Source: Thermoflexus hugenholtzii JAD2 (GTDB taxonomy: Bacteria > Chloroflexota > Anaerolineae > Thermoflexales > Thermoflexaceae). Taken from it: DNA of 64,000 nucleotides. The stretch covers positions 186,001 to 250,000 of the forward strand of contig NZ_FYEK01000044.1 in the NCBI RefSeq assembly GCF_900187885.1, read 5' to 3'. A program made the translations under genes and the position numbers. The notes beneath the pieces were generated by a model. The model was not told where the DNA came from. It did not search any database and worked only from the letters and a program-made list of their open reading frames with translations. Position 1 is the stretch's first letter, and the number at the start of each line of letters is the position of its first letter. Shown one piece after another: positions 2,551-41,966 of the stretch.

Positions 2551-4401
2551 ATGGCGGAGAACCTGTTCGCCGGAAGGTATCGCATCCTGGGCACGCTGGG
2601 CCGCGGCGGGTTCGCGGTGGTCTACCGCGCCTTCGACACCGTCCTCCAGCGCCCGGTGGCCGTGAAGGTCCTCCGCGACGATCGCCTGCGGGATCCAGAG
2701 CTGCGCCGGCAGCTGGAGGCGGAAGCCCGCCTCCTGGCCAACCTCTCCCACCCCAACCTGGTGACCGTCTACGATTTCGGCTGGGAGAATGAGCAGCCCT
2801 ACTTTGTGATGGAATATGTGGACGGATGGGACCTCAAGACCCTCATCCGGCACGGGGCGCCCTTGGCCCTGGACCGCGCTCTGGAGCTGTTCCTGCAGAT
2901 CTGCGCCGCCGTGGGCTATGCCCACCGCAACCACATCGTCCACGGCGACCTCAAGCCCCAGAACATCCTGGTCTCCCGCTCCGGAGAGGTGAAGGTGGCG
3001 GACTTCGGGATCGCCGCTGTCCTGTGGTCCCGGGATCCCGATCGCACCACCTGGGCGACCCCGCAGTATCTTTCCCCAGAGCAGGCGGCCGGCGGCCCTC
3101 CCACGCCGGCCTCCGATGTGTATAGCCTGGGGCTCATCCTCTATGAGATGCTGACGGGCCGTCTGCCCTTCGAGGCCGGCACGCCGGCGGAGCTGATCCA
3201 GGCCCACCTGACGCAGCGGCCGCCTTCCCCCAAGGTCTTCAACCCGGCCTTACCGGAAGATGTGGCTGCGATCATCCTAACGTGCCTAGAGAAGGAGCCC
3301 GCCCGGCGCTATCGCAACGCGGACCAGCTGGCCCAGGTGCTCCTCCGCCGTCATCCGGCCGCCGCGCCGGCCCCTCCTCCGGAGCCAGCCCGGGAGGCGA
3401 CCACCCGGCCGATCCCCCCGGCGCCCGCCTTGCCGGAGGAGCGGGACTGGGTGCTCTGGCTCCTGGGGGTGCTGGCGGCCCTGGCCCTGCTGGGCCTGAT
3501 CCCCCTCTGGATCATGGTCTACCGGGCCTACCTGGGCAGCCCCTCCGGCCTTCCCACGCCCACCCCGCCCCCCACCATCGTCCCCACGGTTCAGGTCCCT
3601 GACCTGCGGGGGTTGGCCGTGGCGGAGGCGCAGGCCCGCGCCGCCGGGCTCGGCCTGGGGTTCACCGTCGTCCGGGAGGTGGAGGATCCCCAGCGGCCGG
3701 CCGGCGTGGTGATCGAGCAGGAGCCTCCCCCCGGGGCGAGCCTCCATCCCGGGGAGCCGATCCGGGTCACCATCAACCGGGGCGGCCCGACTTTCCCGGT
3801 GGTTAACGTGATCGGCTATACGCTGGACGACAACATCCTGAATGGCCTGCGCTCATATGGATGGGATGTGCGGGTGGAGCGGGTGTGGAGCCCGGAGCCG
3901 CCCGGGCGGATCCTGGAGCAGACGCCGCCGCCGGGGGCCTTGCTGGGGGTGGGCCAGCCCCTCACCCTCACCGTCAGCGCCGGGACGCGGGTGGAGATCG
4001 GGGCCAACTTCGCCAACTGGGTGATGCTGGACGCCGTGGATCTGCCGCAACGGACGTTCCGGCCTGGGGAAGTGGTGGCGGCGACGCTGGAGTGGCGCTC
4101 CCTGCAGCGGGTGGATCAGCCCCTGGTGATCTTCGTCCACCTCATCGGCCCGAACGGCCAGCTCATCGCCCAGCGGGACGCCCAGCCCAACCCGCCGATC
4201 CCGGCCTGGCAGCCCGGGCAGATCGTCCGCGATCCCCTGGCCCTGCCCATCCCAGGGAACGCCCCGCCCGGGACCTATCAGCTGCGCACCGGGCTTTACC
4301 CGGAGGGCAACCCGGCGGCCCGCGTCATCGTCCTCAGCCCGGGCTACTCCAGCGCGGTGAACAACAGCCTCCTGATCAGCGAGCTGATCGTCCGCCCGTG
4401 A
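2551..4401 (+). CDS. membrane Ser/Thr protein kinase with two PASTA domains and an Ig-like C-terminal domain
   Basis: A PknB/Stk-type kinase of about 616 residues. The kinase domain covers about 8-265 with glycine loop LGRGGFAVV, ATP-binding Lys39 in VAVKVL, catalytic HGDLKPQN (Asp133) and DFG at 151-153. The residue before the catalytic Asp is Gly, not the usual Arg, so this is a non-RD kinase. A Pro-rich linker and one membrane helix (about 299-324) follow. Outside the cell are two PASTA repeats (about 348-483), which in this family bind muropeptides, and a beta-rich domain (FVHLIGPNGQ...PPGTYQLRTGLYP) shared with the GT39-like protein at 51807. A GTG at 2545 is an alternative start; neither start has an ideal SD. 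Confidence 0.9.
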   Translation: MAENLFAGRYRILGTLGRGGFAVVYRAFDTVLQRPVAVKVLRDDRLRDPELRRQLEAEARLLANLSHPNLVTVYDFGWENEQPYFVMEYVDGWDLKTLIRHGAPLALDRALELFLQICAAVGYAHRNHIVHGDLKPQNILVSRSGEVKVADFGIAAVLWSRDPDRTTWATPQYLSPEQAAGGPPTPASDVYSLGLILYEMLTGRLPFEAGTPAELIQAHLTQRPPSPKVFNPALPEDVAAIILTCLEKEPARRYRNADQLAQVLLRRHPAAAPAPPPEPAREATTRPIPPAPALPEERDWVLWLLGVLAALALLGLIPLWIMVYRAYLGSPSGLPTPTPPPTIVPTVQVPDLRGLAVAEAQARAAGLGLGFTVVREVEDPQRPAGVVIEQEPPPGASLHPGEPIRVTINRGGPTFPVVNVIGYTLDDNILNGLRSYGWDVRVERVWSPEPPGRILEQTPPPGALLGVGQPLTLTVSAGTRVEIGANFANWVMLDAVDLPQRTFRPGEVVAATLEWRSLQRVDQPLVIFVHLIGPNGQLIAQRDAQPNPPIPAWQPGQIVRDPLALPIPGNAPPGTYQLRTGLYPEGNPAARVIVLSPGYSSAVNNSLLISELIVRP

Positions 4402-39269: not shown

Positions 39270-39853
39270 AGCCGGAGGAGGAGCTGACCTTCGTCCGTGA
39301 GGGGATGGCCGCGATGGAGGACTACCTGAGCTCGGATCTGGTCTACTGGACGCTCCGCCCCTTCTCCGCCACGTTCCCTGCCTTCAGCGTGGGGGGGCTG
39401 CTGGAGAGCCTGCGTCGTCTGGAGGCCCGCCGGGAGGAGTTGCCGCCTGGGGCTCAGGCGGAGCTGGGGGCCATGAAGAGCCAGCTGGAGCGCGTGCGGG
39501 AGGTCCATCCGGATCGATATCGTCGGAAGGTCGAGCGGGAGCTCAGCAGCCGTCTGGACGCCTGGTCCTGGTATCTGGAGGACTATGAGGAGCGGCCGGA
39601 GGAGGCGGCCGTTAGCTATCCCGCTCAGGTCCACATCCGCGTGAAGATCGATCTGTTGCTGGAGGAAGCCGAACGGCTGGGGTTAGAGGTCCAGCCGGCC
39701 CGGCGCCGGGTGGAGGCCCTGGATCAACGTCTGCGTCGTCACTGGGTGCCCGGCCCCTTCCTGTGGGAGGAGGCGTTGCAACGCGCCTTCCCCCGGGAGC
39801 GCTTCTGGTGGCTGTATGGCCGGCTGCAGGGTCGGGAGGCCGTCGGGGGGTGA
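39266..39853 (+). CDS. conserved hypothetical protein coupled to the P-loop kinase
   Basis: A 195-residue soluble, helix-rich protein (MKPEEELTFVREGMAAMEDY ... YRRKVERELSSRLDAWSWYLED ... QRAFPRERFWWLYG). No signal peptide, membrane helix or catalytic motif recognised. The ATG overlaps the kinase stop by 4 bp, and GGAGGG lies upstream, so the two products probably act together. The promoter of the mini-ORF cassette begins 5 bp after its stop. Confidence 0.7.
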   Translation: MKPEEELTFVREGMAAMEDYLSSDLVYWTLRPFSATFPAFSVGGLLESLRRLEARREELPPGAQAELGAMKSQLERVREVHPDRYRRKVERELSSRLDAWSWYLEDYEERPEEAAVSYPAQVHIRVKIDLLLEEAERLGLEVQPARRRVEALDQRLRRHWVPGPFLWEEALQRAFPRERFWWLYGRLQGREAVGG

Positions 39854-39857
39854 GGAA

Positions 39858-39886
39858 TTGACAGCGTCCCGGATCGCGGGCATGAT
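39858..39886 (+). promoter_or_regulatory. promoter of the hairpin-switch mini-ORF
   Basis: Consensus TTGACA (39858-39863), exactly 17 bases, then CATGAT (39881-39886). Transcription would start near 39893. Confidence 0.7.
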
Positions 39887-39954
39887 CCTCAATGTTCCGG
39901 GCGCCCCCGCCGATGGCGAGTGCGGCGCCTCCGGATGTGCCATCCCACCGGAAA

Positions 39955-40050
39955 GGAGGTGATGCGACATGGACGAAAAACGTCGGACAGACCTGAGGGA
40001 GGCGGGCCGTCGCATCACCTCCGGTGAGGACCGATAAGCGACGGCCCGCC
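39955..40050 (+). promoter_or_regulatory. mutually exclusive RNA hairpins controlling a perfect Shine-Dalgarno
   Basis: Segment A, GGAGGTGATGCGAC (39955-39968), contains the SD. Segment B at 40001-40022 carries two overlapping complements: GTCGCATCACCTCC (40009-40022) pairs 14/14 with A, while GGCGGGCCGTCG (40001-40012) pairs 12/12 with segment C, CGACGGCCCGCC (40039-40050). The two pairings share 40009-40012 and cannot both form in full. A:B hides the SD; B:C frees it. The upstream AAAGGAGGTGAT also matches the 16S rRNA 3' tail complement over 12 bases. Confidence 0.7.
39969..40037 (+). CDS. 22-residue mini-ORF
   Basis: ATG GAC ... CGA TAA encodes MDEKRRTDLREAGRRITSGE plus DR, a very charged peptide. 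The SD AAAGGAGGTGATG is the best in the window, 5-6 bases from the ATG. The ORF spans segment B of the hairpin switch and stops just before segment C, so a ribosome on it would cover B. No family recognised. It could be a leader peptide, an antitoxin-like or regulatory peptide, or simply the reader of the switch; translation is inference. Confidence 0.5.
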   Translation: MDEKRRTDLREAGRRITSGEDR

Positions 40051-40054
40051 GGAA

Positions 40055-40093
40055 GGGGCCGCCCCCGGCGTCGGGAGGCGGCCCCTTCGTTTT
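40055..40093 (+). terminator. terminator of the mini-ORF cassette
   Basis: GGGGCCGCC (40055-40063) pairs with GGCGGCCCC (40077-40085), followed by TTCGTTTT. It ends the plus-strand unit before the convergent sigA gene. Confidence 0.8.
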
Positions 40094-40127: not shown

Positions 40128-40161
40128 CAAAAAATCGGGGCGCCGTCGCACGGCGCCCCGA
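40128..40161 (-). terminator. rho-independent terminator of sigA
   Basis: TCGGGGCGCCGT (40135-40146) and ACGGCGCCCCGA (40150-40161) form a perfect 12-bp stem with a 3-base loop. On the minus strand six T follow directly (40134-40129). Confidence 0.95.
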
Positions 40162-40189
40162 CATCGGATTGCGGGAAGGCGACATCGAC

Positions 40190-41398
40190 TCAGGTCAGGA
40201 ACTCCCGGAGCTGGCGGCTGCGACGGGGGTGGCGGAGCCGGCGCAGGGCGCGCCCCTCAATCTGGCGGATGCGCTCCCGGGTCAGCCCGAACTTCTTGCC
40301 CACCTCTTCCAGGGTGTAGCAGCGACCGTTCACCAGGCCGAACCGCAGCCGCAGGATGCGGGCCTCCCGCGGGCTGAGGGTGGAGAGGATCTCCTCGATC
40401 TTCTCCCGGAGCAGGTTCTGATAAGCGATCTGGTTAGGAGAGGGGGAGGATTCGTCCTCGATGAAGTAGCCCAGCTCGTCCTCCTCGTCCTCCCCCACCG
40501 GGTTCTCCAGGCTCAGGGGCTGCCAGGAGACCCGGAACATCCACTCCACCTTGCGGGGATCCACGCCCAGCTCGGCGGCGATCTCCTCCACGGTGGGCTT
40601 ACGGCCCAGGCTCTGCTCCAGCTCGTGGGCCACCCGATACAGTTTGCGGATGCGATCGCTCATGTGGACGGGGACGCGGATGGTGCGGCTCTGGTCGGCG
40701 ATGGCCCGGGTGATGGTCTGGCGGATCCACCAGGTGGCGTAGGTGCTGAAGCGGTAGCCGCGCCGGTAATCGAACTTCTCCACCGCCTTCATCAGGCCCA
40801 AGTTGCCCTCCTGGATGAGGTCCAGGAAGGGGACCCCGCGGCCCATGTATTTCTTGGCGATGCTCACCACCAGGCGGGTGTTGGCCTTGATCAGGTGCTC
40901 TCGGGCTTTGCGGCCCTCCTCCACCAGCTTCTCCAGCCGCGCCCGTTGCTGAGGGGTTAGCCGCCGCGCCTCGCGCAACCGCCGGGCGGCCTGTTGCCCG
41001 CGGAACACCTGCCGGGCCAGCCGCACCTCCTCCTCGCTGGTCAGCAGGGGGACACGGGCCATCTCCTTCAGGTAGAGGCCGACCGTGTCATCCACATCGA
41101 TGTCTGCCAGATCGTCATCCTCCCCCAGGACCACATCGCTGGTCTCGAAATGCTCTTCGCTCTCCTCTTCCTCTTCTTCTTCGATCTCCCGGAGGAACCG
41201 CTCCTCTTCCTCGATGTTGATCCGGGTGTCGTCGTAGAGCTCGATGCCCGCTTCCTGCAGCCAGAGGCAGATCTCATCCAGCTCCTCGGGGGATTCCTCC
41301 GCCTCCGGATAGATCTCCAAGATGTCCGTGACGGTGAGATAGCCCTGTCGCTCCGCCAGGGACAGCAGCTCGCCGATTACTTCGTCGAAGCTCGCCAT
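40190..41398 (-). CDS. rpoD: primary sigma factor of RNA polymerase (sigma-70/SigA)
   Basis: A 402-residue group 1 sigma factor. Region 1.1 (about 1-60, [20 protein letters not shown]), an acidic stretch ([13 protein letters not shown]), region 1.2 ([20 protein letters not shown]), region 2 ([40 protein letters not shown]), region 3 and region 4 ([31 protein letters not shown]) are all present, as needed for -10 and -35 recognition. ATG 41398 follows GGAGAGGAGCGACG. Cotranscribed with the upstream DUF177 gene. The TTGACA/TATAAT promoters in this window are its expected targets. Confidence 0.96.
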
Positions 41399-41459
41399 CG
41401 TCGCTCCTCTCCGCACCCAGAGATCTCGAAACGCTCCTTCCCGCTCCCAACGGCCCCCT

Positions 41460-41966
41460 TCACTCCCCCTGCAGGCGGAATGCGGCCAGAGCCGCCCATC
41501 GCGGGTCCGGCTCCCGAACACATCCGCATTCCCCCTCATTCAGGTTCTGCCCACACTCCGGGCACAGCCCACGACAATCCGGCCGGCAGAGCACCCGCAA
41601 CGGGGTGTTCAGCAGGATGTGCTCCCGTAGCGGCGCCGTCAGGAACAGATAACCATCATCGGTCACCGCATAAAACGTCTCCCCCGGGATGTCCACGGGG
41701 GAGAGGAAAAAAGCCTCCTCGAACTCGAAGGTCATCGGGAAGGCAACCGGTTCCAGGCAGCGGGCGCACTGGGTGTGGATCTGCGTGGCGATGGTGCCGG
41801 AGGCCAGGAGCCGACGGTCGGAGCGGACCAGCTCGATCTCCCCGCGCAGATAATCCACCTCCACCCCATATCCCAAATCCCCCGGTCCCTCCTCCAGGGC
41901 CAGCACCATGCGGCTGCCCACCGGCGCGCTCACCAGCGCGCCCACCCGATAGCGCAACATTTTCAT
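41460..41966 (-). CDS. DUF177 / YceD family protein
   Basis: A 168-residue member of the YceD (DUF177) family linked to 23S rRNA or large-subunit maturation. [20 protein letters not shown] is the family core; the C-terminus has [20 protein letters not shown] followed by CGC, a Cys cluster that probably binds zinc. DUF177 normally sits next to rpmF (ribosomal protein L32); here the neighbour is sigA and no rpmF is seen within the window. ATG 41966 follows GGGGAGGGCCCC. Confidence 0.88.

Follow-up and report, generated by a model that had tools for sequence, protein, structure and literature searches.

What would a small RNA do that carries the parts of a translational switch and has no gene behind it on its own strand to regulate? 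The question is raised by a self-contained small transcription unit on the plus strand of a 3.2-Mb Thermoflexus (Chloroflexota) genome (G000), at 39858–40093 of the 64,000-nucleotide stretch of DNA that was analysed as a whole (the window, to which all coordinates refer unless stated). An ORF ends at 39853, just before the unit, and after it comes a convergent rpoD-type sigma gene (40190–41539, minus strand; Pfam Sigma70 regions 1.1–4), which has a strong terminator of its own at 40134–40162 on the minus strand.

Anatomy of the Thermoflexus unit

A sigma-70-type promoter opens the unit (39858–39886): TTGACA (39858–39863) and CATGAT (39881–39886), 17 nt apart, agree with the consensus at 10 of 12 positions, are conserved in the genus, and form the sole site of this type in 1.2 kb, where 0.1 would be expected in a consensus scan; a consensus scan of the Thermoflexus locus found no antisense promoter over the unit. 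The transcript, expected to start near 39893, would begin with a G+C-rich, lineage-specific hairpin (39896–39934; counterpart GCGCAGGC...GCCTGCGC in other Thermoflexus), followed by a conserved motif, GCCATCCCACC (39938–39948), that is near-invariant in Anaerolineae and Caldilineae members and that, by partition function, is able to pair weakly with the Shine-Dalgarno sequence (SD) in the full-length RNA. The SD, GAAAGGAGGTGAT (39951–39963), is extended, being the exact complement of 13 nt at the 3' end of the genome's own 16S rRNA, GGATCACCTCCTTTC. It leads into a mini-ORF of 22 codons, MDEKRRTDLREAGRRITSGEDR (39969–40037), with its ATG at 39969 and its TAA stop at 40035–40037, and the unit closes with an intrinsic terminator (40053–40093) made of a stem-loop at 40053–40088 and a T run at 40090–40093. 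Promoter, extended SD, mini-ORF and terminator had all been described by a first-pass annotation of this DNA, and all are present.

Two pairings meet in the mini-ORF. Its anti-SD-like segment B3', GTCGCATCACCTCC (40009–40022), is complementary at 14 of 14 positions to segment A (39955–39968) in the SD region, as the annotation had said, and its segment B5' (40001–40013) pairs at 13 of 13 positions with segment C (40038–40050), which starts directly after the stop codon; the annotation had recognized this second pairing as well but had counted it as 12 of 12, leaving out one available pair. It had also held that the two pairings overlap by four bases and hence compete. Four to five bases are indeed shared at this locus, but the helices cross and might also coexist, as an H-type pseudoknot of about 10 + 13 bp that is possible in the Thermoflexus lineage. 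The minimum-free-energy fold shows a third alternative, in which upstream CCAUCCCACC is paired onto the SD.

The predicted 201-nt transcript has a more stable fold than 200 of 200 dinucleotide shuffles (z = −4.8), and in the window sequence, complementarity between the ORF interior and each of A and C lies at the floor of 200 shuffles (p = 0.005 each). Given this floor and the retention of the pairings in seven same-genus genomes and phylum-wide, they do not result from chance. As to other identities, tmRNA was rejected, since ARAGORN finds none in the window and a separate tmRNA is present in the genome; 6S RNA gave no match in this genome, in a search that comes up empty in 9 of 14 control genomes as well.

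Recurrence and genomic setting across Chloroflexota

The element occurs once in its genome, and seven of the eight other genomes of the genus carry it without loss of SD, ORF, terminator or either pairing (the matches include Candidatus Thermoflexus sinensis, tengchongensis and japonica), the promoter also being kept wherever enough upstream sequence is available. Two more distant DNA matches (L017 and L018) preserve the whole scheme in other sequence and with other peptides. A pattern scan across 84,980 species (AAAGGAGGTGATG, 20–50 nt, TCACCTC) returned 62 stretches, 39 of them from Chloroflexota; 38 of these 39 have full or near-full architecture, with a hairpin and an ORF ending just beyond B, the hairpin being weak in L044 and L098. 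Because this first scan demanded those letters, the strict conservation of GATG and TCACCTC is partly ascertainment. Viral contigs gave no pattern match. Only one of the other 23 stretches has the same order of parts: a Bacteriovoracaceae contig (L058), on whose minus strand an SD, a 15-codon ORF, a B:C hairpin and a terminator follow in order around its positions 3649–3791, holds a possible member outside Chloroflexota.

Covariance and sequence models were built for Anaerolineae, Caldilineae and Thermoflexus (R1), for Chloroflexia-like members (R2) and, as a sequence model only, for Dehalococcoidia-like and other members (R3). They match 167, 83 and 117, respectively, of the same 400 sampled Chloroflexota genomes, and their union reaches at least 194 of the 400 at E ≤ 1e-4, a lower bound for some families that is based on rough model E-values. 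A family with Ktedonobacteria-sized genomes (f61) scores 3e-5 to 5e-4, and the element is clearly present there on reading; matches at L168, L188 and L256 proved false and were set aside, and one at L173 is doubtful. Occurring in Anaerolineae, Caldilineae, Dehalococcoidia and many other families, the element is, as judged from sequence, an RNA gene of roughly 200 bases across most Chloroflexota lineages. What recurs is a unit of promoter, SD of 12–14 nt matching the 16S tail, ORF of 13–26 codons, two alternative helices and terminator, normally in one copy per genome (a genome with two divergent copies, L165 and L166 in G357, is an exception). The GGNGGTG of the SD is invariant in 95 of 95 members, and promoter-like sequence lies upstream of 52 of the 95, against 3.2 expected from shuffles. 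Just upstream of the SD, GC(C/T)ATCCCA is near-invariant in Anaerolineae and Caldilineae (39938–39946 in the window; columns 7–15 of alignment A1), and Chloroflexia-like members have CAGGC/G at that place; a complement to GC(C/T)ATCCCA was sought in the window genome's 16S and none was found.

The A–B–C–terminator pattern that the annotation had proposed to look for in relatives therefore recurs phylum-wide, with compensatory changes in B:C. Relatives lacking both pairings or the mini-ORF, the outcome it had named as counting against its reading, are not what the searches returned: homologues throughout the phylum retain pairings, mini-ORF and terminator, so that this objection falls away. Its central proposal, a free-standing RNA of regulatory type with two competing folds and a mini-ORF, is thus supported by the comparison of sequences.

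The downstream gene is convergent at 34 of 57 loci and on the same strand at 23, and among the loci compared no neighbour family is common to the whole phylum, the neighbours being functionally unrelated. This lack of a common neighbour, together with a mostly convergent downstream gene, argues for a free-standing gene rather than a leader and bears out the annotation's remark that no regulated gene follows. The annotation had nevertheless compared the architecture to an attenuator, and the anatomy is like that of leader-peptide attenuators, with rpoD lying convergently downstream; the unit might on that account attenuate or antiterminate transcription of a gene past the terminator, or control the neighbouring rpoD through antisense read-through. 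However, the terminator contains no sequence from A, B or C and shares none with either helix, no gene follows consistently, and the neighbour varies by lineage. Regulation of this kind is very improbable, being largely refuted by context. In a Herpetosiphon-like genome (L133, 4001–4356), the element points towards the end of an rRNA operon, with a 5S-like sequence at 4243–4356 on the minus strand and LSU and SSU beyond.

Co-evolution and predicted folding order of the two pairings

Both predicted pairings co-evolve, B:C by compensatory changes and SD:B by a partner-swap test. In 18 sequences, compensatory change is found at 11 of 12 B:C pairs, a score that none of 500 shuffles reaches and that collapses when the registers are slid, and a second lineage set of 16 likewise gives 0/500 on the covariation score; compensatory changes support the terminator helix as well. 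Classic covariation for A:B is limited because A is pinned by the 16S. Nonetheless, 98.8% of cells are paired across 16 Chloroflexia-like sequences, with changes in B being nearly all G-U-compatible, and Anaerolineaceae-like members have GGAGGAGG as their SD and CCTCCTC in B. The partner-swap test set, for each A-tail, a lineage's own B against the B of other lineages (37 lineages): native A-tail:B partners reach −15.0 versus −12.2 kcal/mol (z = −7.7; 0/20000 permutations), B:C gives z = −14.4 (0/20000), and the controls A:C and 5'UTR:B are negative. Against dinucleotide shuffles, A:B is significant in 26 of 41 lineages and B:C in 32 of 41; A:B is weak in some lineages, and the other 15 of 41 are not significant singly.

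The extent to which the helices overlap bears on whether they compete or cooperate. If they cooperated, the element would be a structural RNA in which A:B3' and B5':C form together, as an H-type pseudoknot that has the ribosome or a protein as its ligand. In most members of the Thermoflexus/Caldilineae type the overlap is just 2–6 bases and the loops look long enough, so a pseudoknot is possible in the Thermoflexus type; it is hardly so in the Chloroflexia type, most members of which use the same B bases to pair with A and C (overlap 6–13), such that both helices cannot form in full. We consider a pseudoknotted binding RNA of this kind quite improbable. Competition between the predicted helices, on the other hand, is the common denominator across types.

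Partition functions, calculated with pseudoknots ignored for RNA truncated at the stop codon, before C has been made, and for the full RNA, suggest an order for this competition. SD:B pairing lies above 0.5 in 37 of 41 lineages before C and in 6 of 41 in the full RNA, and in the window RNA, A:B stands at 0.91 (37 °C) and 0.84 (70 °C) before C is made and at 0.05 and 0.03, respectively, afterwards. In 69 of 90 cases, B:C is stronger than A:B. The SD of the full-length RNA is "free" in a relative sense, because in many members it is still partly paired with upstream sequence (median 0.35).

The same calculations speak to a possible role in trans. B contains ATCACCTCC, identical to the 16S anti-SD, and many Gram-positive small RNAs use C-rich anti-SD loops; B could in principle pair with the SDs of other mRNAs, with A or C serving only to mask it. 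In the computed states, however, B is mostly covered by A or C, and across lineages it drifts in step with the A-tail and C inside the RNA. The conserved segments A and B pair with each other, and in the window genome the exact motif is at no other gene's SD: other exact copies of AAGGAGGTGATG were looked for there, and none is at a start site, making B unlikely as a trans anti-SD in that genome and its own SD the best target. We regard a trans-acting small RNA as improbable.

The mini-ORF, its likely output, and known systems

Start codons in the 95 extracted members (ATG in 79, GTG in 13, TTG in 3) are located shortly after the SD, the mini-ORF has a median of 17 codons, and the stop codon is usually at the foot of C. 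The first in-frame stop is 13–26 codons past the start in every one of 41 representative lineages, compared with 5 and 1 lineages in the other frames, a contrast that is partly circular since starts were picked with ORF length in mind. Together with the strong SD, this conservation of start and stop would fit a micro-peptide gene, in which the peptide of 13–26 residues is the product and the switch merely autoregulates or delays its translation; M-D/S-S-S is also a common beginning of the peptides, and ..EV.. or ..VASPR.. closes them in several lineages. But B is read as RITS (..ITS..), ASP or HL in different lineages, that is, in three frames, and the peptides, which are charged, can be aligned only inside one class. 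Changes within the genus are mostly non-synonymous (4 of 5 coding changes in Thermoflexus), and the early Ser is nearly always AGT, a preference at the level of bases and not of residues. The differing frames through B, non-synonymous changes and base-level codon preference together imply that the limits of translation are kept and the peptide is not. A peptide as conserved product, which the annotation had allowed for, is accordingly not borne out, and we think a micro-peptide gene rather unlikely.

Two further features of the mini-ORF were seen. Codons 2–5 have a strong family-wide preference for NNT, chiefly AGT (GAT AGT AGT CGT), while the amino acids vary; a complement to the AGT-rich codons was sought in the window genome's 16S, and none was found. 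A second SD-like sequence, GGAGGTG, lies inside the mini-ORF 8–14 nt before the stop in L138, L139, L144, L174, L182, L187, L190, L042 and others and is conserved in alignment A3; its possible partners in some lineages are B3' and a CCTCC just after it, and it might hold the terminating ribosome.

The reading that we prefer, and to which we give about half of our confidence, is a stand-alone gene for a translated, fold-switching RNA across Chloroflexota, with ribosome engagement as the likeliest output. RNA polymerase would make the SD (A) first and then the mini-ORF with its anti-SD middle (B), which would fold back onto the SD and seal A before C exists; upon transcription of C, B would switch partner to C, and the SD would be freed, or left loosely covered, at termination. 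A ribosome landing early on A, or translating the mini-ORF, would hold B off A and would halt at the stop codon at the foot of C, after which B:C would re-form. Via its own stability, or by holding ribosomes, such an RNA might sense or tune free small-subunit or translation capacity. Since selection keeps the ribosome site, the start and stop, and the competing pairings, and not the peptide or a downstream gene, we infer a probable output in ribosome engagement, in RNA life-time, or in both. In a more specific version, which we put forward tentatively, the element would act throughout the phylum as a housekeeping RNA that gauges or buffers how many small ribosomal subunits are free: during its synthesis the transcript would briefly offer a full-length SD, capture by a 30S subunit would vie with B, and the outcome would set the fate of the RNA, with neither protein product nor target gene.

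A small RNA gene that is conserved through a deep bacterial phylum, usually single-copy and missing from Rfam is a rarity, and this one retains SD, start, stop and both competing pairings but has let the peptide go. It would serve as a self-contained model for a nascent RNA controlling ribosome access to itself. For annotation it amounts to a new family, and it can be tested in culture, in Chloroflexus, Roseiflexus, Herpetosiphon or Thermoflexus.

In Rfam 15, nothing matches the Thermoflexus element over gathering score, nor the five other loci scanned, and relaxed thresholds yield only weak chance matches at the element; Chloroflexi-1 (RF01698), a motif described from Chloroflexus in the accessible text of PMC2864571, gave no match in these scans either. 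In the openly accessible literature searched, including the accessible text of papers on candidate structured RNAs (PMC2864571 among them), no description of the element was found. Leader-peptide attenuators and uORF switches (the ermC and cat leaders, and uORF motifs such as ilvB, for which see the accessible part of PMC11109978) share with it a promoter, an SD, a short ORF, exclusive hairpins that a ribosome would redirect, and a terminator. Unlike them, the element is without a consistent downstream same-strand gene to regulate, its terminator is not among the alternative hairpins (B and C exclude the terminator arms), and the part that is switched is the mini-ORF's own SD, not the SD of a main ORF.

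SgrS, SR1 and RNAIII are dual-function small RNAs with a small ORF. RNAs of this kind (surveyed in PMC5521070) are short independent transcripts with a promoter, a terminator and a small ORF, as the element is predicted to be. They conserve the peptide and/or the mRNA seed; in the element the peptide is not kept, and what is seen to be conserved is the SD, the limits of the ORF and the scheme of pairing. In hok-type mRNAs of type I toxin-antitoxin systems, the SD is sealed in one fold and freed on completion or processing of the RNA, and the element would resemble them in this respect; in contrast to these, its peptide is charged and unconserved rather than a hydrophobic toxin, no antisense RNA was seen, and it is chromosomal and in single copy phylum-wide. 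The yfr6-like or downstream-peptide motif of cyanobacteria, as presented in the accessible text of PMC2864571, is a structured 5' UTR before a conserved short coding sequence; going by that text, yfr6-like RNAs are similar in being phylum-wide small RNAs with a short ORF on their own transcript, and differ in that the element's structure extends through the ORF and its peptide is unconserved. The element resembles parts of SD switches, leader peptides and small translated RNAs but fails one defining feature of each, and it appears to be a stand-alone, ribosome-gated RNA switch of a type not previously described.
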